Below are positions 31,687-62,118 of a DNA stretch of 64,000 nucleotides, in pieces. Made by a program: the position numbers and the translations under genes. Below the pieces are notes generated by a model. That model had not been told where the DNA came from. It saw only the letters and a list, made by a program, of their open reading frames with translations, and made no database searches. Every line of letters starts with the position of its first letter. Within the stretch, counting starts at the first letter, position 1. Source of the stretch: Bacteroides fragilis. GTDB taxonomy: Bacteria; Bacteroidota; Bacteroidia; Bacteroidales; Bacteroidaceae. The stretch lies in contig NZ_CP018939.1 in the NCBI RefSeq assembly GCF_002849695.1, positions 1 through 64,000 of the forward strand, in the 5' to 3' direction.

Positions 31687-31786
31687 TTTATTTTAATCCA
31701 AGTTTCATAAATTCAACTATTCGCAAAACTAATGTAAACAGGGGATTCCCCCCCTATTATTACCCCTAATACTATTACAAATCAAA

Positions 31787-38687: not shown

Positions 38688-38800
38688 TTTTTTGGTATCA
38701 TAATAATGTTTTCTCTTCGTCCACGTCCGGCAGAACCCGGAAGTATTTGGTATCAAATTCTTTCCCGGTTTCCTGCCTGTGTTGGTAGAAAAGGTATCAG
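38688..38800 (+). repeat. Truncated L module (L6)
   Basis: Three motifs begin at 38694, 38749 and 38793 (55, 44), then the module stops and the stop codon of the next gene follows within 5 bases. The missing part would have held the fourth motif and the closing AACTTTAGGG. A recombination event probably joined the module to the gene end. Confidence 0.82.
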
Positions 38801-41680: not shown

Positions 41681-42181
41681 TTATCTGTTTGTAAATTCAT
41701 ATATTCCTTTTTTCTTTTTTTGTTCTTCTACTCTATTTCTGATGATTTGAATTATGCCACTATTGGCTTTAAGACCGTTCATCAGTAGCTTTGGTGTTGA
41801 TTTATCGCCAGAATAGATATAGATATTAGTGTTATTTATTAAAGACTGAATGAAACTTTGTTTTTCTTCATAATCATATACTCGATATAATTCTATGTAG
41901 TTAATCCTTTTTGAAAGTACTCCTTGATATATTTTTATCTGCTCTCTGGTTATAATCCATTTAGTACAAAGTAGCATTGAAACATATCTGTAGAAGATAG
42001 TAAATATCAATAATACTAATATTGTTCCACTGATGAACTTTAATAATTCATGTCCCCTAATGTATTTACTAAAGACGAATACGGAAATCACTAATATGAT
42101 TAAAAGGAAATTTTTCATCAACCAATATCGGAATTTGGGCTTTAATATAATATCATCAGAAGCTATGCTTGTTCTATTCAT
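41681..42181 (-). CDS. Membrane protein with PH-like domain (166 aa)
   Basis: Two membrane helices (about 22-42 and 48-70) are followed by a domain of pattern KWIITREQIKIYQGVLSKRINYIELYRVYDYEEKQSF, which resembles the bacterial PH (YdbS/YdbT-like) domain. The start overlaps the primase stop by 4 bases. Likely an inner-membrane protein. Role in transfer unknown. Confidence 0.75.
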   Translation of the reverse strand: MNRTSIASDDIILKPKFRYWLMKNFLLIILVISVFVFSKYIRGHELLKFISGTILVLLIFTIFYRYVSMLLCTKWIITREQIKIYQGVLSKRINYIELYRVYDYEEKQSFIQSLINNTNIYIYSGDKSTPKLLMNGLKANSGIIQIIRNRVEEQKKKKGIYEFTNR

Positions 42182-43287
42182 AACTTAATACTTTTTTTTT
42201 GCTCATGCTGTTTCATTAGAATTTCATTGAAATCTTTAGCCTTTTCTGCTTTATGAGAAATCATGGGAGCTACTATTTTGCTTTTTTCTCTAAAACTTTC
42301 TAGTGAAATGTCATTTTTGTTAATACTAAATTCCCTGCCTTTAGTCTTAAAAAGCACATCGTCTTTATTTTCTTTTATTGCTATTTCTGAATTGCTAATG
42401 ATTCCATGTACTTTAATGTCATACAGATTGCCATTTAAATCATTATCAAAACAGGTGTGTACTTTAGCTTGTGGATATCGTGATAGAGTGTTTTTTATTT
42501 GATTAGGTGAAATGTATCCTCCTACGCTGCAAAACACACTTTCTTCTAATTTGATTTTATTGGCATTGAGTTGATAGAAACTCATAGCATCTAAAGCGGA
42601 TTCTGCAAAATATATATGTTTTGCCATCTGTGGATGTGGGCAAAAATCAGCAATCCAGAGCGAGTTACTTTTATCTCCCCCGGCTGCCATTCCTTTGAAT
42701 CCATAGTTTCGTAATTCGTAATTCGTTACTTTGTTGTCTTTATCTGTTGGATTAATATAGGGGAAACCTATATTATAGTAATTGCCGTTTCCCTGTAAGT
42801 CTTTAACCCTTGTTATAAATGGGAGAAACTTTTCTACTACTTGATGATTGATATTTCTTTCATTCGTAAGAAATCTTAAATCAGCAATTGTAGTAGGAAA
42901 TTCTTTGTATCTATCTCTATCGAAAGATTTATTCTCTGTTTTTATTGTTTTGAATGCTTCATATTTAGGAGTATAAGGCTCATTAGCGTAATGTCCTAGA
43001 ATCATATTAATTCGCACAAATGTATTTTGATGTTGGAATTGTGGGAAGTCATTAATATGATTTTTGATGAACTGGATTAAATCTCCACCTTTATAGTTCC
43101 TATCATAATAATGCTCTTGTACACTATGGGGATTCTTGATAATGATTTCATCCAACTTGTTACCTGTTCCGTCTGTTAGTTTAAAAACAGGCGAAATCTT
43201 TCCTTTGCTAATGTCTTGTTTATACCCTAAATCTTCAAGAATTTGAATGATGGATATTTTAGCCTTATAATCGTCAAATGTTAGCAT
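42178..43287 (-). CDS. traP: TraP-like primase with Toprim domain (intact copy)
   Basis: This 369-aa protein has an N-terminal DUF3991-like region with YDRNYKGGDLIQFIKNH near residue 62. The Toprim domain follows: HIYFAESALDAMSFY (catalytic Glu, about 235), VFCSVGGYISPNQ and HTCFDNDLNGN (Asp-x-Asp, about 290). No CHC2 zinc finger is seen. TraP-type primases start complementary-strand synthesis in the recipient. Co-transcribed with the DUF3945-like gene 4 bases upstream and overlapping the PH-domain gene downstream. Confidence 0.87.
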   Translation of the reverse strand: MLTFDDYKAKISIIQILEDLGYKQDISKGKISPVFKLTDGTGNKLDEIIIKNPHSVQEHYYDRNYKGGDLIQFIKNHINDFPQFQHQNTFVRINMILGHYANEPYTPKYEAFKTIKTENKSFDRDRYKEFPTTIADLRFLTNERNINHQVVEKFLPFITRVKDLQGNGNYYNIGFPYINPTDKDNKVTNYELRNYGFKGMAAGGDKSNSLWIADFCPHPQMAKHIYFAESALDAMSFYQLNANKIKLEESVFCSVGGYISPNQIKNTLSRYPQAKVHTCFDNDLNGNLYDIKVHGIISNSEIAIKENKDDVLFKTKGREFSINKNDISLESFREKSKIVAPMISHKAEKAKDFNEILMKQHEQKKSIKL

Positions 43288-43291
43288 AATA

Positions 43292-44851
43292 TTATAGTTT
43301 CATTGTTGGTGTATCATTATTTTTCCCATAGGTTCTGCCATATCCGAGAATAGATGCTTCTTGCTTCGCAGTTGCTTTAATAGAACTATCTATTTTATCC
43401 ATTTGGGTAGATATTTGTTCTCCGATAGTTTGTTTTGTAGCTTCCTTAGAGTTGGAATATGTTTTTTCTACTTCCTTGTAAGAAGCATAATCTTTAGATA
43501 GCTTATATTTTTCTAAAAAGGCAGCCATTTCAGTAGGTTTGTCTTTAAAAATTTCGTCAATTCCTTTAGCTCCTTTTTGAGCAACAAACTCTAATCTTTC
43601 TTTGTCAGATATATGTTTTTCTTTCCCTAGTGTTTGTTCTTTCTTTTCAGTAGCTTTAATTTCTATGGCATTTGCATCTTTAATGGATAATCCATTTTTG
43701 GCATTCAAATCTAGTCTTACTTTTGCGGCTTTGTTCAGTTCTTCGTTTACAATGGTTATTTCTTTCCCATTTTTGAGATTTTCTTGCTGCATAGGGGTTA
43801 ACTCTATTCCTCCAAGCTTTTGGGGAATATGAATATCTTTTGCCTTTATTGATACTATCTCATTAGTATCTTTATCACGTTGGTGTAATGTTCTTTCTCC
43901 TTTTGAATTAGTCTTTACTACGACATTATCAGCTTTTAGAGCTTTTATTTCATCTTTTGTAAAGGACAAATCACTTTTTATTTCTTGCCGTTTAGGAATG
44001 AGTAAAATGGCTATCCCTGCGATTGGATAAACCACTGTAATAGCTGCTATCGCCAGCTTTCTAGCATTGATACCATCAATTTTGATGCGTTTCCCTTCTT
44101 CTTTGAAGTCAATTTCATTTGCTTTTAATTTAGATTTATTTTCAGGTGTATTGTCGGCTGTTATATATTTAAGAGTTGTTGCTTTCCCTTCAAAATTGAG
44201 TTTCCCATCTTCTATTTTATAGGAAACTTTTTCATTGTCTAGAAATTCTCTATTATTAGGAGTATCTTCAATGGAAAAATTTAGCATACCTGTTTTTTTT
44301 CCATTCTTTATGTTTATAACATCTTCGGGGCTTAAATTTTCCGGTTTAACTCCTACTTCATTAAACTTGTTCCAGTCTATATCAACATATGAACCTTTAC
44401 CATCTAGGGTTTGGTTTTGTTCATAAGCATACCGATAAAGGTCTTCTCCTTTATATGCAATTTTATTTTCAAGGTCAATGACTGTAAATCCGTCTTTATA
44501 TCCTTCATTCTTGTTAGTTCCTTGTTTTATATCATCCCATTTTATGATGGCGACATTATGATTTTCTCGTAAATATTGGCTATATTCTTGAAAATTATTG
44601 CTAGCTTGTTCCTTGTCAAAAAAGCTGATAATTCTTTCTTTAGATTGTTCTAATACGGATTCTCTATTATCTCCTAAATTGCCAAGTTTAAGTGTTTTTA
44701 GTGGATAAGTGTATGTTTCATTACCTTTGGAAAAGGTAATATCGCCATTTCGGTATTCTTCTGAATATCCAAGAACTGCTGCTATGGCTCGGAATTGTCC
44801 TGCATTTTCATAGCTATATTGCAGAGCTTCAAAATTTTTCTTTTCTTCCAT
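43292..44851 (-). CDS. DUF3945/DUF4099-like conjugation-associated protein (intact copy)
   Basis: A 519-aa soluble, Lys/Glu-rich protein. At about 200-235 it has NGKKTGMLNFSIEDTPNNREFLDNEKVSY and similar repeat segments. At about 345-400 it has HIPQKLGGIELTPMQQENLKNGKEITI, a DUF3945-type repeat shared with the next gene (IPSSIKGVELNKQQKETLKSGKEL). One hydrophobic stretch, LAIAAITVVYPIAGIAILLI (about 265-285), may be a membrane anchor. DUF3945/DUF4099 proteins accompany primase and topoisomerase genes on Bacteroidales elements. Molecular role unknown. Confidence 0.78.
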   Translation of the reverse strand: MEEKKNFEALQYSYENAGQFRAIAAVLGYSEEYRNGDITFSKGNETYTYPLKTLKLGNLGDNRESVLEQSKERIISFFDKEQASNNFQEYSQYLRENHNVAIIKWDDIKQGTNKNEGYKDGFTVIDLENKIAYKGEDLYRYAYEQNQTLDGKGSYVDIDWNKFNEVGVKPENLSPEDVINIKNGKKTGMLNFSIEDTPNNREFLDNEKVSYKIEDGKLNFEGKATTLKYITADNTPENKSKLKANEIDFKEEGKRIKIDGINARKLAIAAITVVYPIAGIAILLIPKRQEIKSDLSFTKDEIKALKADNVVVKTNSKGERTLHQRDKDTNEIVSIKAKDIHIPQKLGGIELTPMQQENLKNGKEITIVNEELNKAAKVRLDLNAKNGLSIKDANAIEIKATEKKEQTLGKEKHISDKERLEFVAQKGAKGIDEIFKDKPTEMAAFLEKYKLSKDYASYKEVEKTYSNSKEATKQTIGEQISTQMDKIDSSIKATAKQEASILGYGRTYGKNNDTPTMKL

Positions 44852-44852
44852 T

Positions 44853-45572
44853 TTATAATTTGAATTTATGTTCTACTTTAGACAGAGAATCATTTCCAAG
44901 TGACGGCTTTTGTCCTTTCATATATTCTATATATTCACTTCTGTTTTTATCAGTATGAATAGTTCCTATGATTTGTGGGTTATGTCGGTCATAAGCTATT
45001 TTCTGCTGCTGCTCAAAGTCTAAGAATCTTATTCCTTTTGGATTATTTAAATCTAATCTTATGGCTATTTTTTCTTTGTCAACATTTAAAATAAGTTCCT
45101 TGCCTGATTTTAGAGTTTCCTTTTGTTGCTTGTTCAGCTCAACTCCTTTTATGCTTGAAGGTATTGAAATGCTTTTGATTTTTGCTTTGAGCAATTCGTT
45201 TGTTTCTGGGTCTAACTGTACGAGATATTTTTCATTGTTAATAGTTTTTGCTATTACCTCGTTATCTTGAAGTCGTTCTAATTCCTTTGGCTTAAGATTT
45301 ATATCATTCATGATTTCTGGTCTGACTGGATGAATTTTAACGCCAGCATTGTTGTTGTCTTTCCAGTATAGACTTATTTTTCCTTTCATGCTTATTTCCT
45401 CTCCCTTGTTATCATGAAAAGTGAGGTCTAGTAAACTAGTTCTTTTTCCCGATAACAGAGCTGTGATATTAGTCCTATCCAAAGACCATATTTGTTCTTT
45501 TGATACTCCAATTAGTTCTAATTCTTTATATGGAATATCATTTTCATTAAAAATAGCTTGCTTTTTATCCAT
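44853..45572 (-). CDS. DUF4099/DUF3945-like protein (intact copy)
   Basis: About 239 aa from MDKKQAIFNENDIPYKELEL. The N-terminal DUF4099-like domain has the IGVSKEQIWSLDRTNITALLSGKRTSLLDL pattern. A C-terminal DUF3945-like repeat, GVELNKQQKETLKSGKELILNVDKEKIAIRLDLN, follows. It opens the long minus-strand operon that continues to the coupling protein, and is divergent from the M23 gene with only 40 bp between start codons. Confidence 0.8.
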   Translation of the reverse strand: MDKKQAIFNENDIPYKELELIGVSKEQIWSLDRTNITALLSGKRTSLLDLTFHDNKGEEISMKGKISLYWKDNNNAGVKIHPVRPEIMNDINLKPKELERLQDNEVIAKTINNEKYLVQLDPETNELLKAKIKSISIPSSIKGVELNKQQKETLKSGKELILNVDKEKIAIRLDLNNPKGIRFLDFEQQQKIAYDRHNPQIIGTIHTDKNRSEYIEYMKGQKPSLGNDSLSKVEHKFKL

Positions 45573-45612
45573 GTAATGTATATTTTTGCTCAAAAGTAAT
45601 AAAAATATCAAT
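45573..45612. promoter_or_regulatory. Compact divergent promoter pair
   Basis: Plus strand: TTG at 45558-45560, a 20-bp spacer and TATTTTTG at 45581-45588 drive the M23 gene. Minus strand: TACTTTTG (reverse complement at 45591-45598) drives the primase operon. The two -7 boxes are 2 bp apart, so RNA polymerase occupancy should be mutually exclusive. Confidence 0.65.
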
Positions 45613-46278
45613 ATGAAGAATAAGTTTATTGTATTTTTTTCCTGTTCACTGTTTTTTTCAGTGAATAGCTATTGTCAGTTCAATACGGTATTGCAGAAAA
45701 AAGATATTCCTAAAACGGAGCCGGTATTAGCAACAACAGAAAATAAATTGATAGAAGAAAAAGAAAAGGCAGTTGTTGTCAATGATGCTTTGACTACAGA
45801 ACGGCTTGCATACTGGAAGCAAAGAAGGTATTTATCTTTGCCCATTGATTCGATGGTGATAACTTCCCATTATGGTAAAAGAAAAGACCCATTTACTGGA
45901 AAAATAGCAAACCACAGGGGAATAGACCTTAAAGGTAACAACGACTATGTTTATTCGATAATGCCGGGAATGGTTGTAAAAACAGGAAAAAATAAAGGGT
46001 TAGGCAATTATGTAGAAGTGCGTCATGGTGATTTTACTTCTATTTATGGGCATTTGTACAATGTGCTTGTAAATGCGAAACAAGCTGTTGAAGCCGGGCA
46101 ACCAATAGGCATTAGTGGAAGTACCGGGCGCAGTACAGGAGAACACTTACATTTTCAAATGGAATACAAAGATAAGACTATAGACCCTAAGCCTATTCTT
46201 GATTATATTAATGAGGTAATCAGAACCGTTAAAGGACAAATCTCACAGCAAATAGATAATGAGTTAAGACGCAAATAA
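45613..46278 (+). CDS. Secreted M23 (LytM) peptidoglycan endopeptidase (intact copy)
   Basis: I chose the ATG giving the signal peptide MKNKFIVFFSCSLFFSVNSY, about 221 aa. The LytM domain occupies the C-terminal 130 residues: SHYGKRKDPFTGKIANHRGIDLKG (His and Asp ligands), YVEVRHGDFTSIYGHL, then STGEHLHFQM with the final HxH. All zinc ligands are present. It probably opens the cell wall for assembly of the transfer channel. Convergent with the zeta gene, sharing a terminator. Confidence 0.9.
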   Translation: MKNKFIVFFSCSLFFSVNSYCQFNTVLQKKDIPKTEPVLATTENKLIEEKEKAVVVNDALTTERLAYWKQRRYLSLPIDSMVITSHYGKRKDPFTGKIANHRGIDLKGNNDYVYSIMPGMVVKTGKNKGLGNYVEVRHGDFTSIYGHLYNVLVNAKQAVEAGQPIGISGSTGRSTGEHLHFQMEYKDKTIDPKPILDYINEVIRTVKGQISQQIDNELRRK

Positions 46279-46287
46279 ATAGAAAAA

Positions 46288-46316
46288 GAGGATTGGAAAA
46301 GCCAGTCCTCTTTTTT
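46288..46316. terminator. Bidirectional terminator between M23 and zeta genes
   Basis: GAGGATTGG (46288-46296) pairs with CCAGTCCTC (46302-46310) and is followed by TTTTTT, with AAAAA on the other flank. It lies 9 bases after the M23 stop and 16 before the zeta stop. Confidence 0.82.
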
Positions 46317-46326
46317 AATTGAATAA

Positions 46327-47193
46327 TTAGAAGAAACCTTTTTTTAATCCTTTTTCTTGTCTTTGAACTTTTTCTAATGAAGATTGAAGCTGTGACAGTG
46401 CTTCTTTCATTCCTTTTTTTACTTCGGGATTAGTGACGGATTCAATAAATTCTTTTCCTTTTTGAATGTTGGTGTTAAGTATTTCTTTATTCTTCATCTG
46501 TTTTGCCCGACTTTCGTCTATAAAGATAGATGGCATACTTTTACAACTCCATTCTCCATTTACTAGATTAAAATCTTTAACTCTTTCTTTCGCTAAGTAG
46601 GTGTGGATAGAAATCTTATCTACAGCCTTGTCGCTGTATAATTGGTTTGCAGACTTTATTAGTCCATTTACGGCTTTGTTATGTGAATCAATGTCGGCTA
46701 ATCGTCCTTGTCCTTTACTTAGTACTTCTTCTTGATACCTATTGTAAAGTCCTAGTTGGGTAAACTCCTTGGGGGCTGCAATAATATATGCTTCAACCAT
46801 GAATCCAGCATCTTTAAATTTTTGTGCAGTCTTTAAAGGTACATCTGGATTTCTCATAGTTCCTTCTATAATAATGTTGCATTGCCGTTTAATGGCTTCT
46901 TCTATTAGTTTTTCAGTAAAAACACTAGAAAAAATTTGAGTTTCAATAGGATATTTAATAGGGTCTTTTATTAACTCCTTATTGGGGTGAAACAGTCTGT
47001 AAAGGTCACCATTAACAGTGAGAAAATCTAAGTTAGGATGGTCTTTCTTTGCAACATTTATAAGAGTGCTTTTTCCGCAAGCTGGTTGCCCACCTAAGAT
47101 TATAGCAATAGGCTTTTGTGATGATATATTAATATCTTCAAATAAGCCATCTTTTTTTTGTTCAAAGATGGCTTCCACTTCATAGCGTTGCAT
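46327..47193 (-). CDS. Zeta-type toxin kinase (intact copy)
   Basis: This 288-aa protein has Walker A GGQPACGKST (Lys41) near the N-terminus, NGDLYR with a candidate catalytic Asp63, and IIIEGTMRNP (Glu110, Thr112) matching the zeta/PezT active-site pattern. Zeta toxins phosphorylate UDP-N-acetylglucosamine and block cell-wall synthesis. The C-terminal 80 residues are a helical extension. It overlaps the upstream antitoxin by 14 bases. Expected role: post-segregational killing. Confidence 0.88.
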   Translation of the reverse strand: MQRYEVEAIFEQKKDGLFEDINISSQKPIAIILGGQPACGKSTLINVAKKDHPNLDFLTVNGDLYRLFHPNKELIKDPIKYPIETQIFSSVFTEKLIEEAIKRQCNIIIEGTMRNPDVPLKTAQKFKDAGFMVEAYIIAAPKEFTQLGLYNRYQEEVLSKGQGRLADIDSHNKAVNGLIKSANQLYSDKAVDKISIHTYLAKERVKDFNLVNGEWSCKSMPSIFIDESRAKQMKNKEILNTNIQKGKEFIESVTNPEVKKGMKEALSQLQSSLEKVQRQEKGLKKGFF

Positions 47194-47440
47194 AGTATGC
47201 TTTCAATTTGGGTGCGTAATAGTTTTGTATTTTATCCATAACAGATAAACGCACATTTTCCGAAACTTCAAACTGTAATAGTCCGTTAGCTATTTTTTCT
47301 TCTGTGTTGAGAACAGAAAGTTCTTTTTGGAGTAGTTTTTTTCTGTTTTCATCAGCTTCATTAGAAATTTCGTCAATCTTCATCATGCGGAGCGTCCCGA
47401 TAATATCAAGGGCAACATCCAAGCTCATTTCTTTATTCAT
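47180..47440 (-). CDS. Antitoxin of the zeta pair (intact copy)
   Basis: An 86-aa, all-helical, charged protein (MNKEMSLDVALDIIGTLRMM ... LKAYYATL) encoded directly before and overlapping the zeta toxin. It is similar in size to epsilon antitoxins, but sequence similarity cannot be claimed by eye. The assignment rests on size, charge and the overlap. Confidence 0.72.
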   Translation of the reverse strand: MNKEMSLDVALDIIGTLRMMKIDEISNEADENRKKLLQKELSVLNTEEKIANGLLQFEVSENVRLSVMDKIQNYYAPKLKAYYATL

Positions 47441-47486
47441 AAATTCAATGTCTTTATTGTATGTTACAAAGATAACTATAATAAGA

Positions 47487-47759
47487 TTACCATAAACTTA
47501 TAGAACTGATTAGTTTGTAAATAGGTTCTTTGAACTTCTTTAGATTTTTAGTTAGTGTAACGTACTTAGTGATTCCTAATTCATTAAAGATTTCTGCATA
47601 CATTTTTATTATGGGCTTTTTGTAGTAGATAGTTAATACTATTATTGCAATACAAATAAAAATCAAATAGACTAGTTCACTATACGCATAGATTGCTAAT
47701 ACAAGAACTCCACCCATACCCCATAAAAGGCTACTTAAAAAAAATCTTAAGATATTCAT
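47487..47759 (-). CDS. Small two-helix membrane protein (intact copy)
   Basis: A 90-aa protein with two hydrophobic helices (about 3-25 and 29-48) and a basic C-terminal tail (KKPIIKMYAEIFNELG ... NLKKFKEPIYK). It is the first gene behind the shared promoter-leader, with the antitoxin and zeta genes following after 47 bp, so all three may form one operon. No family recognised. Confidence 0.65.
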   Translation of the reverse strand: MNILRFFLSSLLWGMGGVLVLAIYAYSELVYLIFICIAIIVLTIYYKKPIIKMYAEIFNELGITKYVTLTKNLKKFKEPIYKLISSISLW

Positions 47760-47895
47760 AATGTTGTTTGCTCTTCTTTATGCTGGCAGCCAAACCAGCT
47801 TTAAAGGTTTGTTTATCTCTTTATTTACAATACTCAAAGATAGTGATTTTCTATAAATGTCGCAAATAATAGGACAATTGTTTTTGTTAAAAATG
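47760..47895 (-). promoter_or_regulatory. Shared promoter-leader (third location, clean copy)
   Basis: Minus-strand TTTG (47863-47866), 20 bp and TATCTTTG (47835-47842). Leader hairpin GCTGG-N8-CCAGC. Identity with the ardC and RHH elements runs from upstream of -33 to the start codon. Confidence 0.83.
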
Positions 47896-47930
47896 GTTTC
47901 TGATTTACAGATTGCCGAAGTTTTATTTTT

Positions 47931-48172
47931 CCCTAAAGTTTTTGGTATCAAAATAATGTTTTCTCTTCGTCCATGTCCAGCAGAACCCGGAAGTGTACGG
48001 TATCAAATTCTTTCCCGGTTTCCTGCCTGTGTTTGCAGAAAAGGTATCAATTAGATGAAATCCTTTTGCTGATGGACGGTAGTTCTTGAATAGTGTCGGT
48101 ATCATTCCCTTTATAGTGCAACCGTTTTTCTGTATTCAGGAGTGGAGAGAAACGGCACAACAAACTTTAGGG
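47931..48172 (+). repeat. L module L1 (clean copy)
   Basis: GGTATCA begins at 47944, 47999, 48043 and 48098 (55, 44, 55). Borders are CCCTAAAGTTT and AAACTTTAGGG. Between motifs lie CCGGAAGTG and TTTCCCGGTTTCC elements that recur in every copy. An AT-rich tract follows to about 48265. Confidence 0.9.
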
Positions 48173-48347
48173 AAAAGAATATTTTCGTGTAGTTCTTTCT
48201 GTGCTTCGGGAAGTGAAGCGTATTAATCACATATTATATATTCATATATTATTTATATATATAATATAGCATTGTGGGCTAATGGGAATAGTTCCGATTG
48301 CATAACATACAAAGTGTTTTTCTTTGCTTACCTATGTTAAATCAATA

Positions 48348-48385
48348 ATATACATTGTGTATATAATGTATATTTTCTACCTTTG
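48348..48385 (+). promoter_or_regulatory. relBE promoter with palindromic operator
   Basis: ATATACATT (48348-48356), 8 bp, and AATGTATAT (48365-48373) form a perfect palindrome. It overlaps a promoter with TTG near 48355-48357, a 20-bp spacer and TACCTTTG at 48378-48385. The arrangement suits autorepression by the antitoxin or toxin-antitoxin complex. Confidence 0.75.
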
Positions 48386-48404
48386 TAGAAAACTCTAAAA
48401 GATT

Positions 48405-48719
48405 ATGGCAACAATAGCATTACAGAAGAAAAGAAAAAACATTGATTTGCCCATTGAAACATTACAAAAATTGTCTATCATGGCAGCTTCACAGGGCAAA
48501 AGCGTAAAGGCTTTTATTGAATACATTTTAGTTTCAAAAGCTGACACTCTAAAGATTGAGATTTCAAACCCAAGTCCAAGTGGTGACGCATACTTTGCAA
48601 ATCCTGTCAATCTTGCAGAAGTCGAAGAACGAGTAAAAGAACACAAAGAGGGAAAAACAAAGGCTACCGTAGTTCTGCACTCTGTGGAAGATATTACAAA
48701 CTTCATCAATAGTCTTTGA
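48405..48719 (+). CDS. RelB/Phd-type antitoxin (intact copy)
   Basis: This 104-aa protein has an N-terminal RHH-like DNA-binding segment (NIDLPIETLQKLSIMAASQGKSVKAFIEYIL) and a C-terminal toxin-binding tail (VEERVKEHKEGKTKATVVLHSVEDITNFINSL). It lies one base before the toxin gene, behind a palindromic operator. It should neutralise the YoeB-like toxin and repress the operon. Confidence 0.8.
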   Translation: MATIALQKKRKNIDLPIETLQKLSIMAASQGKSVKAFIEYILVSKADTLKIEISNPSPSGDAYFANPVNLAEVEERVKEHKEGKTKATVVLHSVEDITNFINSL

Positions 48720-48720
48720 T

Positions 48721-48999
48721 ATGGCATATATCATCGAATTTGAGCCAAAAGCGGTACAAGATATTGCAGAACTGAAAAAATCGGGGAATAAAGCCTCAAT
48801 AACCAAAATTGAAAGGTTGCTCTTAGAATTAAGAGAACACCCAACTACAGGAACAGGACAAGTAGAACCCTTAAAAGATAACCTTTCGGGGTTTTGGAGT
48901 AGAAGAATAGACAAGTTCAACCGGATGATTTACACTATTGAAGAAGAAATAGTAACCGTTACAGTGATTTCTGCAAAAGGACATTATAACGATAAATGA
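48721..48999 (+). CDS. YoeB/RelE-type mRNA interferase (intact copy)
   Basis: A 92-aa protein with the Txe/YoeB signature TGTGQVEPLKDNLSGFWSRRIDKFNRMIYTI and the C-terminus VISAKGHYNDK, where the conserved His and Tyr complete the active site. It cleaves mRNA at the ribosome. Encoded immediately after its antitoxin and followed after 35 bases by the VapX-VapD pair on the same strand. Confidence 0.87.
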   Translation: MAYIIEFEPKAVQDIAELKKSGNKASITKIERLLLELREHPTTGTGQVEPLKDNLSGFWSRRIDKFNRMIYTIEEEIVTVTVISAKGHYNDK

Positions 49000-49034
49000 A
49001 AGTACTATATTTACAACATAAAAAAATTATAAGT

Positions 49035-49229
49035 ATGAAAATAGGAGATAAAGTTTTAATTTCTCCCGACCTAACCAAGCTACCGAATTGGATAAGTGGG
49101 ACAGTGATAGAGGTTGAAAACAACCCATTTGTTGGTATAGTTATTTCTGCCGAAACAGAGGATAAGAATGTGTTTTTCGGACAGGAAGATTTGTTTAAAC
49201 CTCAAACAGAAGAAGTATGTTTGCCATAA
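49035..49229 (+). CDS. vapX: Putative VapX-type antitoxin (intact copy)
   Basis: A 64-aa protein, chosen start MKIGDKVLISPDLTKLPNWI. A small SH3-like beta protein by pattern (GDKVLISP, SGTVIEVENNPFVGIVISAE). It overlaps vapD by 13 bases, the arrangement of VapX with VapD in Haemophilus. The name follows from position, not from clear sequence similarity. Confidence 0.62.
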   Translation: MKIGDKVLISPDLTKLPNWISGTVIEVENNPFVGIVISAETEDKNVFFGQEDLFKPQTEEVCLP

Positions 49230-49498
49230 GTTTTGATATGTCTATTTCAGACCTTGAAAAGCACTACGGAAAACCGTATAATCGTGCTTACTTTGAAATT
49301 AAGGAAGTCTTAAAGAAAAATAGTTTCGATTGGATACAGGGAAGTACATACCTTACACAAAGCGAAGATTTGGGCAACCTGTTCCGAGCCATTGAAGCAC
49401 TAAAGAAAATAGAATGGTTCAGAAAGTCAGTACGTGACATTAGAGGTTACAAAGTAGAAAACTGGTCCAACTTTACAGATATTGTAAAAGATGTATAA
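49217..49498 (+). CDS. vapD: VapD family endoribonuclease toxin (second copy)
   Basis: A 93-aa protein identical to 7020-7301. QGSTYLTQSEDLGNLFRAIEAL and WFRKSVRDIRGYKVENWSNF are diagnostic of VapD. The fold is Cas2-like, but nothing here suggests CRISPR function. Last gene of the toxin-antitoxin island, whose end is followed by an inverted repeat and the R1 module. Confidence 0.9.
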   Translation: MFAISFDMSISDLEKHYGKPYNRAYFEIKEVLKKNSFDWIQGSTYLTQSEDLGNLFRAIEALKKIEWFRKSVRDIRGYKVENWSNFTDIVKDV

Positions 49499-49514
49499 AC
49501 AATAATCTGTATAA

Positions 49515-49588
49515 GGGGTATCGCTAACTAACATTTATTACAGATGTTACTCTAAAGTAATATTTGTAGTAAATGTTGGTGATATCCC
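49515..49588. repeat. Long inverted repeat downstream of vapD
   Basis: Left arm GGGGTATCGCTAACTAACAT continuing to TTATTAC, right arm GTAGTAAATGTTGGTGATATCCC in inverse, with a three-base slip. The right arm recurs at 27933-27985. It may be the terminator of the toxin-antitoxin operon, but the duplicated half suggests a recombination site. The first-pass copy is at about 7317-7390. Confidence 0.62.
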
Positions 49589-49620
49589 TATTTATGACTA
49601 CCGCAAAATACGACTTTTTT

Positions 49621-49803
49621 GTTCCTGTTCTTTTTCCCTAATGTTTTATGGTATCAATTTTTTGCGGCCGACTTCCGGCAGCTTTTAGTATTTGGTATCA
49701 AAAGGTCGCTCTGCAGAATGTGCCAGGAATAATAATTCGGTATCATTTCATCATGCTATGCTTGCCCATCACTGCCGGAACCCCGAAAGAATAGGTATCA
49801 ATT
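49621..49803 (+). repeat. R module R1 (clean copy)
   Basis: GGTATCA begins at 49650, 49694, 49739 and 49794 (44, 45, 55). It holds CCGACTTCCGGCAGC and TGCCGGAAC elements as in other R modules. The toxin-antitoxin island lies between it and L1. Confidence 0.87.
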
Positions 49804-49821
49804 TCTATATTTCGATTATAG

Positions 49822-49857
49822 AACAAAGACCGAAAATTTTATTTTCCGGTCTTTGTT
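49822..49857 (-). terminator. tra operon terminator (clean copy)
   Basis: AACAAAGACCG (49822-49832) pairs with CGGTCTTTGTT (49847-49857). It lies 17 bases beyond the OmpA-lipoprotein stop and closes the 12-kb tra operon. Confidence 0.8.
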
Positions 49858-49873
49858 AAGAGAAATTTTCTTT

Positions 49874-50515
49874 TTAATATTCATCACAAATGATGAACAT
49901 TTCTACTCTCCTGTTTTTAGCACGTCCGGATTCACTTGTATTGTCTGCAATGGGTTCACTATATCCTTTTCCCTCTTCCGTTATATTGTTTGTTTCTATA
50001 CCAATAGTTCTAAGGTAATTACCTACTGCTGCTGCTCTATTTTGGGAAAGTATAATATTATATTCTTTTTCTCCTACATTATCCGTATGCCCAATTATTT
50101 TAATTTTAGTATTTGGTATTTCAGTAATGATATTACATAGGTCTGAAAGCATTTTTTGGGCTTCTTCGTTCAATTCATAAGAATCAAATTTGAACAAGAT
50201 TTCACTTTGAGCTGTTGCTTTAAATTGTTCCTTTCCATTTTTGTCCTTGTAACTGGAGATTGTTAAGCCATCAATAGCTTTTAGTTTATTTCTCCTAGCT
50301 TCTAGCTTTTCTTGAATAGCTTTATCTCTTTCTTCTTTAACTAATTTTGCAGCTCCACCAACTATTGAAGCGGTTGAATAATTACTATTATTTTCTATCA
50401 TGTCTTTTTCTTTGTCGCTTAGTTCAGCGTTACTGAAAGTTATCATATGCGTTGAAGTACACGCAGTAAGAAATGAGATAACGAAGGCTACTAGTATTAT
50501 TATTTTCTTTTTCAT
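49874..50515 (-). CDS. OmpA-family lipoprotein, last gene of tra operon (intact copy)
   Basis: This 213-aa protein has the SPII signal MKKKIIILVAFVISFLTAC (Cys19) and a helical linker rich in Lys/Glu. A C-terminal OmpA peptidoglycan-binding domain follows (ILFKFDSYELNEEAQKMLSDL ... IKIIGHTDNVGEKEYN ... NRAAAVGNYL ... RAKNRRVEMFI), including the conserved HTD and NRRVE. It likely anchors the transfer apparatus to the cell wall at the outer membrane. Confidence 0.87.
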   Translation of the reverse strand: MKKKIIILVAFVISFLTACTSTHMITFSNAELSDKEKDMIENNSNYSTASIVGGAAKLVKEERDKAIQEKLEARRNKLKAIDGLTISSYKDKNGKEQFKATAQSEILFKFDSYELNEEAQKMLSDLCNIITEIPNTKIKIIGHTDNVGEKEYNIILSQNRAAAVGNYLRTIGIETNNITEEGKGYSEPIADNTSESGRAKNRRVEMFIICDEY

Positions 50516-50517
50516 GA

Positions 50518-51177
50518 TTATCTTATTGCTATAATTGGTCTGATTTTAAATGAATTTTTTTTGCTTGTACTGGTTGCTCTTCCTTTTGTTAATGAAGAAA
50601 TGAGCGCAAAAACTTTAGGAGTATCTTTGCCTGCTCCATCTTCTGTAGAACTCCAGTACCAACCATCAAAGTATGTACCTCCAATGATTGCGAAAGAAGA
50701 ATATACTTTTTCAAGATTGTTAGAGATTGCTTTATTTTGTGCAACAGAGCCAATAAACCAACCTGTAACACCTTTTGGTGCGTATTCTATAGCTTTTTGG
50801 GCTGCTGGATAGGCTATACTATCTTTTATAGCAAAGTTCATTATTGCGGCAGTATTAGCTGCTCCATCAAAGCTGTTTTCATCTTCGGAAACATTAGCTA
50901 TGTCCTCGTCTGTATTTATCAAAAATTTTTCTTCTAAATCTTCTAATGATACGGCATAAGCGGTTTCTTTTATATTGGGGTTATTCCCATCATTACACCA
51001 AAATACAACTCCAATAGCTTCTTTTTCGTTGGGTGAAAAAAGTGAGGGATGCACTATACTTCCATCACTACATAAGATACTACCCGGCTGTAATGATGTG
51101 TCTATAATATCTTCATGTTTTGTACATGATGATATTATGGTTATAATGGATAATAGAATTATATAAATCTTTTTCAT
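50518..51177 (-). CDS. tra-operon lipoprotein with DUF1566-like C-terminus (intact copy)
   Basis: This 219-aa protein has the SPII signal MKKIYIILLSIITIISSC (Cys18), a motif GSILCSDGSIVHPSLF and a C-terminal block GWYWSSTEDGAGKDTPK ... FKIRPIIAIR. The WSSTE and RPI/VRAF-like ending are typical of DUF1566/fibrobacter-type surface domains. It lies between the OmpA protein and TraO, so an exposed component of the mating apparatus is likely. Partner unknown. Confidence 0.72.
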   Translation of the reverse strand: MKKIYIILLSIITIISSCTKHEDIIDTSLQPGSILCSDGSIVHPSLFSPNEKEAIGVVFWCNDGNNPNIKETAYAVSLEDLEEKFLINTDEDIANVSEDENSFDGAANTAAIMNFAIKDSIAYPAAQKAIEYAPKGVTGWFIGSVAQNKAISNNLEKVYSSFAIIGGTYFDGWYWSSTEDGAGKDTPKVFALISSLTKGRATSTSKKNSFKIRPIIAIR

Positions 51178-51179
51178 AC

Positions 51180-51683
51180 TTATTTATTTATTGGAAATTT
51201 AACACCTACTAGTAATCCATTTCGGAAATGGTCACGTGTCCAAAATACAAAATCATTTTTCTGCATTACAAAGACTTGCATCCCATTTCTAAATGAATAA
51301 CTATACTCTAAACCTATATCAATGGAAGCCTGAAAGCCTTTTCTGTTAGCTCCTAAATCTGCTCCAAACCGCCATCTAAAAATACTGTTTTTACCTCGTG
51401 ATATTGTAGGTTTATATGCAGCACCTATACCGAAAGTTTTATAGTTCCAAAAACTATCGGAACATACTTTATTACATACAGGGCATTTATCATATGCTGT
51501 GGCTAAATCAATATATAGTTCATAAGCATTGTGATATTTCCCTTCAAATTCCAGCCCTATAACTGCATTGACAGTATTTTTCCATTGCCAACCTCCTGAA
51601 ATATTAAAGAACTTATCACCATCACCAGCCATAGACTTTAGGGAAATAAATGAAATCATAATAATGAATATAATTTTCTTCAT
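51180..51683 (-). CDS. traO: TraO-like outer-membrane protein (intact copy)
   Basis: I chose the ATG giving MKKIIFIIMISFISLKSMAG, a signal peptide, and about 167 aa. The mature part alternates short amphipathic strands (FRWRFGADLGANRKGFQASIDIGLEYSY) and ends LLVGVKFPINK, the beta-barrel pattern of Bacteroidales TraO. It contains CPVCNKVC, unusual in an outer-membrane protein and possibly a disulfide-linked loop. Follows the coupling-protein-like gene. Confidence 0.78.
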   Translation of the reverse strand: MKKIIFIIMISFISLKSMAGDGDKFFNISGGWQWKNTVNAVIGLEFEGKYHNAYELYIDLATAYDKCPVCNKVCSDSFWNYKTFGIGAAYKPTISRGKNSIFRWRFGADLGANRKGFQASIDIGLEYSYSFRNGMQVFVMQKNDFVFWTRDHFRNGLLVGVKFPINK

Positions 51684-51690
51684 TGTGTTA

Positions 51691-52482
51691 TTATTTAATA
51701 TTATTAGTTCCGTTTTTTTCTGGGGATTCAAATTTAATTCCTGAGAAAAGATGTCTTGTCGATATTAGCCTTTCGAGAGGAATGCCATGCTCTTCTTCTG
51801 TTATAGATTCATCCTTATCTGATAAGGATTGTTTATCATTCTCTTTTTTTGCATTTGATTCAAAGAACAAAAAATCATTTTTCTGTAATTGTTCCACTTG
51901 CCATATTACATTATCGAAATAGCTAAATAGGATAAATTGGGATGTACTTGGGTAATATTTTCCTTCTATGAACAAATAGAAGAATTCTTTAGTATATAGT
52001 CTTCCTAGATATGTTGTTAATTCATTTTTGATTCCTGTGAACTCTGAACCAACATTTAAGGTATGACACTCATTCAATCCTCTTATAAATATTTCAGTTT
52101 CCCTATCACGCTTTAGCATTTCTGATAAAATGCTCATGTCAGGATTACATACGGTTGCTATGATATAAGCAAGATTACAATACTCTTTAGGATAGTGTTT
52201 GCAGTAATAGTATATGGTTGCTGCAAAAATATTTTCCGCTGTCATTTTGAAATATAAATGTTCATCCCATTTATAAGTTTCTCTATACTGCATTCCACTC
52301 TTCTCGATAGCAAGAAATATATCTTTGGCTATTTCTATAGCTTTGGGAATACTATTTATTTTTTCTTTATCGATAGGGTTGTCAAAATAAAAATCCTCGT
52401 TCCAGTTAATGGAACGTAATTTATAACCAAGACTTGGGGTTATAATCGGAGTGACTTCTTTTTTTTCATTGAGAATACTCAT
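51691..52482 (-). CDS. Coupling-protein-like helical domain protein without ATPase motifs (intact copy)
   Basis: This 263-aa protein has no signal peptide or membrane helix. Residues 34-171 align with residues 274-405 of the coupling protein at 36448-38403: NPIDKEKINSIPKAIEIAKD with NPLKREYIEILADATETAEA, YFKMTAENIFAATIYYYCKHY with FFKTSAVNLLAASIYFWSRY, and RLYTKEFFYLF with RLATKESFWVF. Walker A and B are both absent. The C-terminal 60 residues are charged and probably disordered. It resembles a free-standing copy of the coupling protein's substrate-recognition region, encoded in the tra operon. Confidence 0.75.
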   Translation of the reverse strand: MSILNEKKEVTPIITPSLGYKLRSINWNEDFYFDNPIDKEKINSIPKAIEIAKDIFLAIEKSGMQYRETYKWDEHLYFKMTAENIFAATIYYYCKHYPKEYCNLAYIIATVCNPDMSILSEMLKRDRETEIFIRGLNECHTLNVGSEFTGIKNELTTYLGRLYTKEFFYLFIEGKYYPSTSQFILFSYFDNVIWQVEQLQKNDFLFFESNAKKENDKQSLSDKDESITEEEHGIPLERLISTRHLFSGIKFESPEKNGTNNIK

Positions 52483-52497
52483 ATGTCTTATTTTTAA

Positions 52498-52842
52498 TTA
52501 TTCAAACCAGAAATAATATATAGCCATTAAAATTAAAAATCCGAGAAGAAGTATCTGTGTAAACAAAACACCTCGCTTTACAATGTAATATTCTTCTCGG
52601 TCCTTGGATTCTTCTTTTAATGTTTTTATTAGTTCTTCTATAGACTTCTCAAGTTGGCTGCCTTTTTCCATAGCATTTTCTATGCGCTTCGTATAGACCT
52701 CCACCCTTTTCAGTTCCTGATATACCAGTTCTACCGCAAGCTGCGGGTTTACCTTTGGTGCTGTGTCTTTTCTTTTCCGGGGGCTGTACTGTCCCTGCTT
52801 AACGGGTGAAGCTGCCGCCTCCGAGCGTGAGTTTGTTTCCAT
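52498..52842 (-). CDS. Small tail-anchored coiled-coil protein (second copy)
   Basis: Identical to the 114-aa protein at 10297-10641: basic Ser/Pro N-terminus, charged helix, C-terminal membrane anchor, and a 5' region richer in G+C than its neighbours. See that entry. Confidence 0.75.
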   Translation of the reverse strand: METNSRSEAAASPVKQGQYSPRKRKDTAPKVNPQLAVELVYQELKRVEVYTKRIENAMEKGSQLEKSIEELIKTLKEESKDREEYYIVKRGVLFTQILLLGFLILMAIYYFWFE

Positions 52843-52859
52843 ATTAATCCTGTTTTTAT

Positions 52860-53699
52860 TTATTCGGTAAAGGCATCTGCATGAAGAATGTCTGCATAAT
52901 CTATTCTTAATGTTATCGTACGTCCTGAAATCTGTTTTTCAGATATTTCTATGGTAAGCACTTTTTCATCAGGAAAAGTAAACTTTTCAAAGACAAAAAT
53001 ATTTCGATAGTTCTTCTTGAAAACAAGATTCTTATTAACTTGCATCAATGGAAGTATTTCTATAGATTGAAAATTAGTAGCCTTTGTTTGTTTTTTATCT
53101 TCTATTTTGAAGCGTATTTGGTCTATATCATATCGTATTTTTGTTTTATTAATCATAGAAATATCAATAAAGAAATACTTATCCAGTGTGTAGATATTGT
53201 TTAGTACAATTTTCATTAGGTTACTTTTGCTGGAAACATCATAGAATTTATTTTTTGAAATAAACATTCTATGTGCGTAATCATACATTTGTGCTTTGGT
53301 TAAATTCACTTCTGGGTTCATATAGCTACGTAAATCAGCATAAGGGATATTAAAGCGAGTGTATGCTTTCGCTAAGTCGCTACTATATACTAGCATATAT
53401 TGTACGAAAAATCTTTCTGTAACAATGGTGATAACTCCACTGGCTCCTTCTTTTGTGGGCTTTATTCTAAGAGAGTTACCAGTAGGAATATCGCCAACAA
53501 TATCATTGACCGATATATCAACGTATTTTATATCTTCCATTGCTATAAAATGCGTTGAAACATCTTTGTTGATGTATATAACTTTTAGTTCTTCCGGGTT
53601 TTCACCTGCAAATTCGATGTTTTCTCCAATAGGGGTGTTCTGTGCGTTTCCTGTAATTACAGAAACCATTGTGCATAAAGCAAAAAAAATCTTTCTCAT
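52860..53699 (-). CDS. traN: TraN (second copy)
   Basis: Identical 279-aa VirB9-like protein as at 10659-11498, with the signal peptide MRKIFFALCTMVSVITGNAQ. Confidence 0.87.
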   Translation of the reverse strand: MRKIFFALCTMVSVITGNAQNTPIGENIEFAGENPEELKVIYINKDVSTHFIAMEDIKYVDISVNDIVGDIPTGNSLRIKPTKEGASGVITIVTERFFVQYMLVYSSDLAKAYTRFNIPYADLRSYMNPEVNLTKAQMYDYAHRMFISKNKFYDVSSKSNLMKIVLNNIYTLDKYFFIDISMINKTKIRYDIDQIRFKIEDKKQTKATNFQSIEILPLMQVNKNLVFKKNYRNIFVFEKFTFPDEKVLTIEISEKQISGRTITLRIDYADILHADAFTE

Positions 53700-53700
53700 A

Positions 53701-54810
53701 TTATTGTTCTTTATCTTTGTTATTTACTAAAAAAACTTGTGTATTATATTTTAATTTGGCTTTGTTCTTTTTGATGTTTTTAGAGAGAGCTTGGGTCGTA
53801 CTACGGTAAGCATCTTGTAAAGCACCTAAAGCGAATTGTTCTACTCCTTCTGATTGACTATTCATTTGTATTGTTTGACTTCCTATTTGCGAACCAACAT
53901 CTTTACTTAAATCTCTAAAAGCTGATGAAGGAACAAAGAAACCTTCTTGTCCGTCATTATCATATACAGATAAATCTACTTTCATTTGTTTACCATCAAC
54001 CATTATAGAGGAAATATTAATGTGTACTCTTTGAGCTTTAAAGCCAGATACATTTCCATATAGGTAAGTGCCTTTAGTTAAAAGAGCGTCATTAATCATT
54101 ATATCATCTAGAAGCCGTATGCGTACTCTGCTACCATCTGTTACTTTTAAAGTTTCATCTAATATGGCTGTGATTAGTGAAGTTTTTTGTTCTTTCCCTA
54201 CAGTGTTGAAATATACTTCTGCTGGATTTTTGGCTTTTACAACTTCTATAGCCTTTTCTTTGGGTTTTTCCTCTTGTTTTTTTTGAGGCATTCTAGGACG
54301 TGGATTTTGCAATGAATCTATATAAGCCATTTGCATTTTAAACAATTCCATTTCTTCTTGCATTTTAGATTTTTCAGGAGCTTTTCTCGTTTCTACTTGA
54401 CTTGATTCATCTATAGTAGGGAAACCTTTTATTTGTTGCTCCAATTCCTTTTCTCGGATTCTAGAAGCCTGATTTAAACTGTCAATTTGCCTTATTTCAT
54501 CATTAGAGTAAAGAGAGCCAGAGCTTTCAATTTCACTAATTTCTTCTTCTTTATCTATAGTTTGTATAGATGAATAATCAGAAGATTTGTTGAAAGCCCC
54601 TTTGAGCGATTCAAATTTACTTTTTATCTCTCTTTTTTCTAAATTAGCATCAGGAATATCAAGATTTAATTCTTCCGTTTCTACTAATGTAGTTTCCTCT
54701 GCTGGGGCAGAGTTTACCATATCCTTAATTAACCATCCTATTCCTAGGATAAAAGGTAGGATGAGTATAGGAATGATGTACTTGGGCTTTTTAATATCAA
54801 TCTGTTTCAT
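53701..54810 (-). CDS. traM: TraM (second copy)
   Basis: Identical 369-aa VirB10-like protein as at 11500-12609: one N-terminal membrane helix, long linker and C-terminal beta domain. Confidence 0.89.
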   Translation of the reverse strand: MKQIDIKKPKYIIPILILPFILGIGWLIKDMVNSAPAEETTLVETEELNLDIPDANLEKREIKSKFESLKGAFNKSSDYSSIQTIDKEEEISEIESSGSLYSNDEIRQIDSLNQASRIREKELEQQIKGFPTIDESSQVETRKAPEKSKMQEEMELFKMQMAYIDSLQNPRPRMPQKKQEEKPKEKAIEVVKAKNPAEVYFNTVGKEQKTSLITAILDETLKVTDGSRVRIRLLDDIMINDALLTKGTYLYGNVSGFKAQRVHINISSIMVDGKQMKVDLSVYDNDGQEGFFVPSSAFRDLSKDVGSQIGSQTIQMNSQSEGVEQFALGALQDAYRSTTQALSKNIKKNKAKLKYNTQVFLVNNKDKEQ

Positions 54811-54813
54811 ACG

Positions 54814-55245
54814 CTATTTATTTAATTTATTATATAAATCTTTTATTCGCAAAGTGTCTTCTGGAGTTAATTTCCCATTCTTTCTTAGTTCATTAATTTC
54901 ATTTTGCATTTTAATTACTTCTAACAAATCTCCAACTCCTATTTGTTTTTTTTGTAGGCTGCTGTCGATGCTAATTTGTATTTTGTTCTTTTCTTCGTTG
55001 AAAACTTGCATTGGTTTTCTCGATGGACGCATTACTATTGATAGAAATGTAACTAAAGAAAGAAATGAAATCGTTATTCCAAACATTGCTTTGCGGTGTA
55101 TGTCTGCCCATGCTAATAAGCGTTCACAAGCGTTATTAACTCCGAATCTTTGAAATATTTTAGTAAGAAGAATAACTGTAGCTTGTTCGGCTTTAGTCTT
55201 GATATTTTCTTTTCTATCATTCTTTTTATGTTTAAACAGTTTCAT
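54814..55245 (-). CDS. traL: TraL-position protein (second copy)
   Basis: Identical 143-aa single-pass membrane protein as at 12613-13044. Overlaps the TraK stop by one base. Confidence 0.75.
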   Translation of the reverse strand: MKLFKHKKNDRKENIKTKAEQATVILLTKIFQRFGVNNACERLLAWADIHRKAMFGITISFLSLVTFLSIVMRPSRKPMQVFNEEKNKIQISIDSSLQKKQIGVGDLLEVIKMQNEINELRKNGKLTPEDTLRIKDLYNKLNK

Positions 55246-55859
55246 TAGAAATTCTTTTTTACTTTATAATCTAGGTCTTTATTGAGTATCGTTTTCCAAT
55301 CTGTGATAATAAGCCCATGAGGATTATTTTCAGTACGTGGGATTTGTCTTACTTTCCCTGTAGTTACAAGTTGCCTTTTTAGAATGGATGTTTCTCGTTC
55401 TATACGTTGGATGCCATAGTACTCAAAAGATAGATTATTCATGTCTATCTTGATGCTATCTGTCATAATTGTTACAGTTGCAGAACTTGCTAAAATAGTG
55501 TTGAAATATCCTTTTTCTTTTAAGTTGTTATATTGTTTTAATCCACTATCATCAATTAGATACATGGCTTTTTCCATGTTGTATTTTATAAATTCATCGT
55601 CTGGTGGTAATGTGAAAAATAAAGTGTGGAATAGATTTATGTGGCTTTTACATTCTACTTCCAAGTTGACTTCTGTACCTGTTTGTTTCACTAGTACAGG
55701 TACATCATTATCCAAGACATATATTTTCTTTCTTTCTGCTTTTACTAAAGAGAAACAAAAGGCTAGTACCATACCTGAAATAACTATACTAGTTGCAAAA
55801 CAACCAATAGATAAAATTCCGGCTAGTTTAATTTTATTTTCTAAGTTTTTAATAATCAT
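55245..55859 (-). CDS. traK: TraK (second copy)
   Basis: Identical 204-aa VirB8-like protein as at 13044-13658. Confidence 0.89.
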   Translation of the reverse strand: MIIKNLENKIKLAGILSIGCFATSIVISGMVLAFCFSLVKAERKKIYVLDNDVPVLVKQTGTEVNLEVECKSHINLFHTLFFTLPPDDEFIKYNMEKAMYLIDDSGLKQYNNLKEKGYFNTILASSATVTIMTDSIKIDMNNLSFEYYGIQRIERETSILKRQLVTTGKVRQIPRTENNPHGLIITDWKTILNKDLDYKVKKNF

Positions 55860-55892
55860 GATTATGTGTGTTTAAAAAATTATGAATCTTTT

Positions 55893-57564: not shown

Positions 57565-57565
57565 A

Positions 57566-58240: not shown

Positions 58241-58251
58241 GATATTTATCT

Positions 58252-61090: not shown

Positions 61091-61095
61091 AAGCT

Positions 61096-61395: not shown

Positions 61396-61396
61396 A

Positions 61397-61710: not shown

Positions 61711-61734
61711 TTGAATAAAAAATTAGTTGTTTAT

Positions 61735-62073: not shown

Positions 62074-62089
62074 ATTCTTGAATTTAAAA

Positions 62090-62118
62090 GTTTCACAAAT
62101 CGACCCTTTTTCTGTACT
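62090..62118 (+). repeat. Recombinant inversion junction
   Basis: The same 29 bp as site A. Its left flank is that of site A (GAATTTAAAA) and its right flank is the inverse of the site B flank (TTTGATTTGTAATAG). This is direct evidence for the product of site-specific inversion. Confidence 0.92.

Follow-up and report, generated by a model that had tools for sequence, protein, structure and literature searches.

Phased heptamer arrays on a Bacteroides fragilis conjugative plasmid and their counterparts in viral contigs: candidate DNA-binding platforms of a mobile-element regulon

The plasmid and its L and R modules

The window analyzed here comprises 64,000 bp (positions 1 to 64,000) of the Bacteroides fragilis contig NZ_CP018939.1. 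The contig (73,970 bp) holds a conjugative plasmid of about 42.2 kb that is read about 1.75 times, so that the modules at 5754 and 47944 are one module; a unit length of 42,175 bp was used for site counts. In a self-comparison of the contig, 1-19919 and 42176-62118 agree at 99.7%, with 56 gap openings and 0 mismatches, and these gap-only differences, which break several ORFs, look like long-read indel noise. The plasmid belongs to a pBF9343-like family of Bacteroides: a 20-kb stretch is matched by 98 plasmid records, 19 of which match over at least 80% in one place. It encodes an HU-family protein and a ParA, the ParA gene adjoining a DUF3408-like gene and not the gene of the small array-linked protein described below. 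Positions 19941-31815 are present again, inverted, at 62090-73970. The segment, 11.9 kb long and carrying par, mobilisation, replication, ArdC-like and serine recombinase genes, is thus present in both orientations, and a stretch of about 28 bp is common to the inversion junctions (19892-19919 and about 31785-31815; second junction at 62090-62118). Transfer genes lie downstream of the mobilisation/ParA operon in one orientation of the segment and not in the other, so that its inversion could serve as an on/off switch of transfer.

The heptamer GGTATCA occurs 53 times in the window, compared with 5.5 expected occurrences (sd 2.25, largest 11; 100 dinucleotide shuffles). The 42,175-bp unit contains 34 sites on the plus and 6 on the minus strand, and 23 same-strand neighbour pairs lie 43-45 or 54-56 bp apart, while random placement yields a mean of 0.17 and a maximum of 3 such pairs (5000 trials). 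The GGTATCA arrays at constant spacing reported in the initial annotation are therefore real. They are organized in modules of two types, L and R:

5741-5980, plus strand: L1 module; GGTATCA at 5754, 5809, 5853 and 5908 (55/44/55), both closing arms exact
7452-7602, plus strand: R1 module; 7452, 7496 and 7541, fourth site altered
22741-22982, plus strand: L2 module; 22754, 22809, 22853 and 22908 (55/44/55), between the mobC and relaxase genes
23589-23818, plus strand: L3 module; 23589, 23644 and 23688, then GGTATCG, between the rep and mobC genes
23970-24120, plus strand: R2 module; fourth site GATATCA
28797-29042, plus strand: L4 module; 28810, 28865 and 28909, then GGTATCG, upstream of the candidate reader gene
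29195-29345, plus strand: R3 module; four intact sites
30709-30851, plus strand: relic of an L left end without heptamers; promoter-like sequence inside at 30744-30775 (minus strand)
35475-35704, plus strand: L5 module; 35475, 35530 and 35574, then GGTATCG
35856-36006, plus strand: R4 module; fourth site GGTATTA
38694-38799, plus strand: truncated L6; 38694, 38749 and 38793 (55/44), upstream of a VirD4-like operon
47931-48172, plus strand: the L module first singled out; second reading of L1 (5741-5980) in the contig
49650-49800, plus strand: R, second reading of R1; four intact sites

A spacing of 55, 44 and 55-56 bp had been ascribed to all six L copies, the truncated L6 included; all four sites are intact in L1 and L2, whereas the fourth site is degenerate in L3, L4 and L5 (GGTATCG at +55 or +56 in the copies at 23589, 28810 and 35475) and L6 ends at 55/44. 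For the R modules, reported at 44/45/55, the 44/45 part is found in all four copies, while the fourth site at +55 is intact in R3 (29195) and in R1 as read a second time (49794), and altered in the other three. The inverted repeat CCCTAAAGTTT/AAACTTTAGGG, thought to close the complete modules, is exact at both ends in L1 only: the left arm of L2 reads TCCTAAAGTTT, the right arm of L4 is changed, and such a left arm is absent from L3 and L5. Finally, 44 and 55 are multiples of 11 and not of 10.5, so that the suggested location of the sites on the same DNA face is approximate for relaxed B-DNA. The arrays had also been considered as a recombination module; however, the inversion junction (at 19.9 and 31.8 kb, some 28 bp long) is separate from L and R, which speaks against this function and likewise against the modules being crossover sites of an invertase.

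The interior of the units is structured as well. From 166 units of 44 bp, 28 non-redundant ones (under 75% identity) were retained. CTGCAG, CTCGAG, CCWGG or CCGG is present in 27 of these (column shuffles 8.9, maximum 18), and a palindrome pair with centres 17-23 and 26.5-32 bp from the heptamer start is present in 17 (shuffles 0.58, maximum 4), a test that is not blind since the palindrome set was picked after the 28 units had been seen. The paired palindromes lie 7-10.5 bp apart.

A toxin-antitoxin-like gene group is located between L1 and R1 at 5980-7440 (and 48180-49640). In pBF9343, L and R adjoin at this place, and in other plasmids different genes are found between or beside modules, as if the modules acted as exchange points for cargo genes.

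Spacing in other plasmids and in viral contigs

By blastn, the L-R module is matched by 30 plasmids, all from Bacteroidales, and by no phage record. In 13 plasmids the distances of clustered sites are 44 (107 times), 55 (93) and 45 bp (47) with four exceptions. Most of these 13, like the 30 plasmids with the module, are near relatives, and the independent plasmid lineages compared here number four in all. The plasmid pBACSA01, beyond the reach of the module blastn, carries three-site GGTATCA arrays at 44/55, and pBFY46, with a ParA identity of 71%, carries GGTATCA at 55/44/44. NZ_CP103211, which was picked through a relative of the candidate protein, the array outcome not being known beforehand, contains eight dispersed arrays of a different heptamer, GGTGTCT, at 44 and 55 (one 56, one 99). 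For variants of the form GGTNTC, the distances are 22, 33 and 66 bp in pBFY46; in pBF9343 they are 26 and 49 bp. Homologous modules with random spacing had been named beforehand as a refutation of the conserved phasing; across the plasmids the distances stay at 44/45/55, and as judged from sequence comparison the spacing outlasts sequence drift, including a change of the heptamer.

This bears on the idea that the modules are MITE-like or gene-conversion repeats, i.e., mobile or relic sequences which have simply inherited their spacing. Several near-identical copies per plasmid, imperfect inverted ends and the cargo between L and R in the window would agree with it, yet heptamer and spacing outlast the divergence of the spacers and module copies occupy corresponding gene borders in different plasmid lineages, so that we consider such an origin extremely improbable. 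Within single plasmids, modules are much alike: in pBFY46 (record L115) those at 28308-28966 and 17157-17815 are 98% identical over 660 bp, and in plasmid record L111 those at 11262, 31449 and 39310 are nearly identical to each other. Since modules are alike within one plasmid and different between plasmids, concerted evolution within each plasmid is suggested. Of 399 genomes of the window's family, 4 match the three-site pattern: that of the window itself, a second with the coordinates of pBACSA01, a third with L-type sites, and a fourth in which the match is a simple repeat. Contigs L043 and L053 of a Leptotrichiaceae MAG carry L- and R-type arrays and probably stem from a Bacteroides plasmid that was binned with it.

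Arrays of the same geometry occur in viral DNA. Scanning IMG/VR for three GGTATCA at 43-45, then 43-56 bp returned 57 stretches, many of them coding or tandem repeats, and ten viral contigs (G786-G795) with 44/44 arrays (one 43/44) between genes. Their gene content, judged from translations read by eye, includes tail-type genes, an integrase and a CI-like repressor; one protein matches the Gam-like protein of phage ZF40 and another matches three Vibrio phages, both at about 30% identity. In the Vibrio-like contigs several arrays nearly span the whole gap separating adjacent genes. No DNA similarity of one such phage array to phage records was found. As a control, a similar pattern was found in 4 of 295 genomes of the order of contig G796, in all cases in repeats that look coding. 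The corresponding scan of viral contigs for GGTGTCT gave 36 stretches, which with few exceptions are short tandem repeats or have spacings that are multiples of 3; one of them (L285) has 45/55, and none of the 36 has the candidate protein.

Placement of the arrays and a candidate reader protein

The array sites lie outside annotated CDS in pBF9343 (30 of 30), pBACSA01 (12 of 12) and pBFY46 (22 of 22), together 64 of 64, with an overlap of a few bases between array and CDS end at 25791 in pBFY46 and at 20511 in pBACSA01. Lone GGTATCA sites, by comparison, are all inside CDS (4, 3 and 7 in pBF9343, pBACSA01 and pBFY46, respectively). In NZ_CP103211, 14 of 19 clustered sites are located outside CDS. 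In the window family, arrays separate rep from mobC and mobC from the relaxase gene, precede the VirD4-like operon, mark the border of the OmpA operon and lie in the interval that divides the ArdC-like gene from the candidate gene. This dispersal over the plasmid is not that of Rep iterons, which are tandem repeats at one origin beside rep, and replication iterons are disfavoured on this ground. The placement also has to be weighed for a purely architectural platform, in which the arrays would wrap or bridge DNA for transfer, packaging or shielding together with a host or element nucleoid protein, with no specific gene control. Regular units of 4-5 turns, the intergenic location, arrays several kb apart and the HU-family gene on the plasmid are compatible with such a role; the module ahead of the protein's own gene and those at operon borders suggest regulation instead, and we regard a solely architectural function as unlikely.

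Within the window family, the heptamers keep a uniform orientation with respect to transcription. Orientation is reversed in NZ_CP103211, if GGTGTCT is the counterpart of GGTATCA, as its 44-then-55 order suggests, mixed in G791-G795, and uniform in the Vibrio-like contigs with one ambiguous case. Orientation being reversed or mixed across elements makes a double-stranded platform likelier than an RNA or an orientation-bound roadblock. An RNA would be a 5' leader or small RNA with hairpins between UGAUACC motifs, and its folding does beat that of shuffles (z of -3.6 for L on either strand; -3.4 and -2.3 for the two strands of R), just as the uniform orientation in the window family would suit it. 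However, both strands fold equally, 0 Rfam matches at gathering score are found in the 64 kb, the orientation varies between elements as described above, and several promoter-like matches lie between array and gene, which leaves a structured RNA highly improbable.

For the promoters, the consensus TTTG-N19-21-TANNTTTG was used for strict matching. Matches are present in 11 of 22 array stretches in four plasmids, all sense and none antisense (random mean 0.30); of 23 array stretches in all, 22 were used, and the one between convergent genes has no match. As 14 of the 25 strict matches in the four plasmids lie elsewhere, promoters occur near arrays but without enrichment over other intergenic DNA, and in three of the four plasmids the matches are not above the expectation for intergenic DNA. 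Measured from the last heptamer onward, the match starts at 76-96 bp in the six nearest cases and at 151-475 bp in the other five. In the window, all six strict matches are located at an L end or at the L relic, including the following:

5646-5676, minus strand: promoter-like TTTG/TANNTTTG at the left end of L1
23523-23554, minus strand: promoter-like sequence between L3 and mobC
28701-28732, minus strand: promoter-like sequence between L4 and the candidate reader gene

A candidate for the protein reading these sites emerged from comparing the ORFs of eight viral contigs with four plasmids (blastp, E 0.01), which returned 11 weak matches, including an HTH protein and two small proteins from which the candidate was then identified; distant relatives of ParA or the DUF3408-like protein could escape a search at this threshold. 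The two small proteins have an F-T-x-R start and a long helix and adjoin arrays in G791 and G793. The protein proposed for the plasmid in the window is encoded about 265 bp from L4:

28294-28545, minus strand: candidate reader, 83 aa; F-T-L-R start followed by a helix and a long helix; weak evidence for an RHH-like protein

A profile of four such proteins matches a pBFY46 protein at E 3e-18, and next in rank is one protein near an array in each of three Vibrio-like contigs (E 0.04, below the inclusion threshold). In eight aligned family members M, F, T, R and L are invariant, with F, T and R at the N-terminus, and identity to the window protein is 14-30%, one near relative apart. While the heptamer differs in NZ_CP103211, the F-T-L-R start is unchanged there.

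The protein and the arrays co-occur. The candidate has a tblastn match in all 30 module plasmids, one of which covers the first 47 residues only; 17 of the 36 plasmid records that it matches were read (10 whole, 7 in part). Beyond the window family the gene lies 0.5 kb (pBFY46), 1.4 kb (NZ_CP103211) and 3 kb (pBACSA01) from an array, and in six of the ten array-bearing viral contigs (G786-G789, G791, G793) the distance is 50-200 bp. Among 145 GGTATCA-pattern loci, several of them near-copies, the protein is present in 9 of 40 array-type loci compared with 0 of 105 others. No family member was found in G792, G794 and G795 (read whole as fragments of 12-15 kb) or in G790 (partly read), and in G792 and G794 a different RHH protein adjoins the array. 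Three plasmids of another backbone (L239, L240, L241) encode relatives of the candidate, and no arrays of this kind were found in the 50 kb read per plasmid. These plasmids contain clusters of CGCTCAC upstream of a BfmA-type mobilisation gene, with 7-10 sites mostly 19-23 bp apart (L239 16058, L240 10511, L241 10445). A profile of the protein matched 9 of 393 genomes of the order at E 0.001, the window's own genome over the whole profile and the others by partial helix matches. For three family members, no relatives in viral contigs were found beyond the contigs already in the set, and the pBACSA01 protein gave one weak tblastn match to phages (E 0.01), in a 4.6-kb record without arrays.

The candidate looks like a ribbon-helix-helix protein extended by a coiled coil, a tentative assignment. 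The AF2 monomer of the window protein (pLDDT 87.7) has an extended start and helices at 11-24 and 29-82, the second running into a long coil, and that of a phage protein (pLDDT 76.1) has two helices, again with the second running into a long coil; neither model contains a strand. Pfam RHH_1 scores 13.7 bits for the window protein, under the cut-off of 20.5, no RHH family was found by Pfam for five other members, and member L218 matches unrelated families only. RHH-type proteins are among the top Foldseek matches (best E 0.21, not significant) and are listed by VIA (Z up to 5, not significant).

A proposed protein-bound platform and its relation to known systems

The multi-site DNA-binding complex put forward in the initial annotation is supported as a platform, its spacing surviving in divergent plasmids, after a change of heptamer and in viral contigs. 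We assign a probability of about 0.5 to the reading, derived from sequence, that the modules are DNA-binding platforms of a mobile-element regulon bound by the small RHH-like candidate; readings as RNA leader, iterons, invertase site or mobile repeat fit worse than a protein-bound platform. The unit of the arrays is a near-invariant heptamer (GGTATCA, or GGTGTCT in one lineage) repeated every 44, 45 or 55 bp, and most 44-bp units also contain a pair of short palindromes whose centres lie some 20 and 29 bp downstream of the heptamer. Most likely, the element-encoded protein (28294-28545) would bind these sites cooperatively and, by oligomerising, build a phased nucleoprotein complex. In plasmids this complex would form at the borders of the operons for replication, mobilisation, transfer and accessory functions as well as before the protein's own gene, and in phage contigs in intergenic gaps. 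The module ahead of the candidate's own gene and those at operon borders suggest an autoregulated regulon, and the complex would most likely keep the element's operons under common, autoregulated control, presumably by repression.

Parts of this scheme have precedents. The operators of RK2 KorB are palindromic single sites read by a ParB-type HTH protein, and the arrays would resemble them in that one element protein reads dispersed sites at several operons, here putatively. MetJ and CopG operators consist of paired short palindromes 8-9 bp apart that are read by RHH dimers and are thus similar to the palindrome pairs inside the units, but they lack the heptamer and a 44/55-bp phasing over several units. 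The stoperators of cluster A mycobacteriophages are single 13-bp sites bound by an HTH repressor, with an orientation tied to transcription (PMC9283540). The arrays have in common with them asymmetric sites scattered over short intergenic gaps of a phage genome, and differ by phased arrays, mixed orientation and an RHH-like candidate.

A further close counterpart is the omega protein of pSM19035, an RHH ParB with six heptad parS sites of 7-10 contiguous heptads overlapping promoters (PMC9499535). The systems are alike in a small RHH-type protein, asymmetric 7-bp sites and several dispersed arrays at the operons of one plasmid, and the heptad WATCACW has TATCA in common with GGTATCA; they differ in that here 2-4 heptamers lie 44-55 bp apart with palindromes between them and are not contiguous. 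While pSM19035 has a cognate ParA, the ParA present on the plasmid would be only a putative partner of the arrays. The centromere for the ParA system proposed in the initial annotation would correspond to a dispersed one, in which either the RHH-like protein or the DUF3408-like one encoded beside ParA would occupy parS-like arrays for plasmid segregation, any transcription control being a by-product. The ParA gene on the plasmid and the RHH protein that acts in this way on heptad arrays at six dispersed sites in pSM19035 (PMC9499535) favour this view. The array-linked protein, however, is not encoded beside ParA, arrays also occur in viral contigs, one with an integrase-like gene (by eye), and pSM19035 requires contiguous heptads, unlike the sites here at 44-55 bp, so that we consider a centromere rather unlikely and favour the regulon platform.

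In the mostly open-access literature searched, no description of such arrays was found, the titles retrieved for GGTATCA and Bacteroides suggesting primers, nor were publications found on an RHH/coiled-coil protein of Bacteroides conjugative plasmids or on the control of transfer operons in pBF9343-type plasmids. The parts, an RHH-like protein and dispersed operators, are of known kinds; what appears to be new is the geometry, together with the two-part unit and its occurrence in plasmids as well as in phages. It is conceivable, and at present a tentative proposal, that they constitute an undescribed class of control, in which phased heptamer arrays with paired palindromes and a fast-evolving RHH/coiled-coil reader would form a superstructure silencing or licensing the operons of a whole element, in Bacteroidales conjugative plasmids as well as in phages that infect distantly related bacteria, with the heptamer exchangeable and the geometry kept. 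Plasmids of the pBF9343 type occur in many gut Bacteroidales, and one small protein with readable sites at the borders of replication, mobilisation and transfer would make the control of transfer directly testable. That unrelated phage contigs show this geometry too points to a common means of controlling or organising mobile DNA, one in which the spacing would be more constrained than the sequence.
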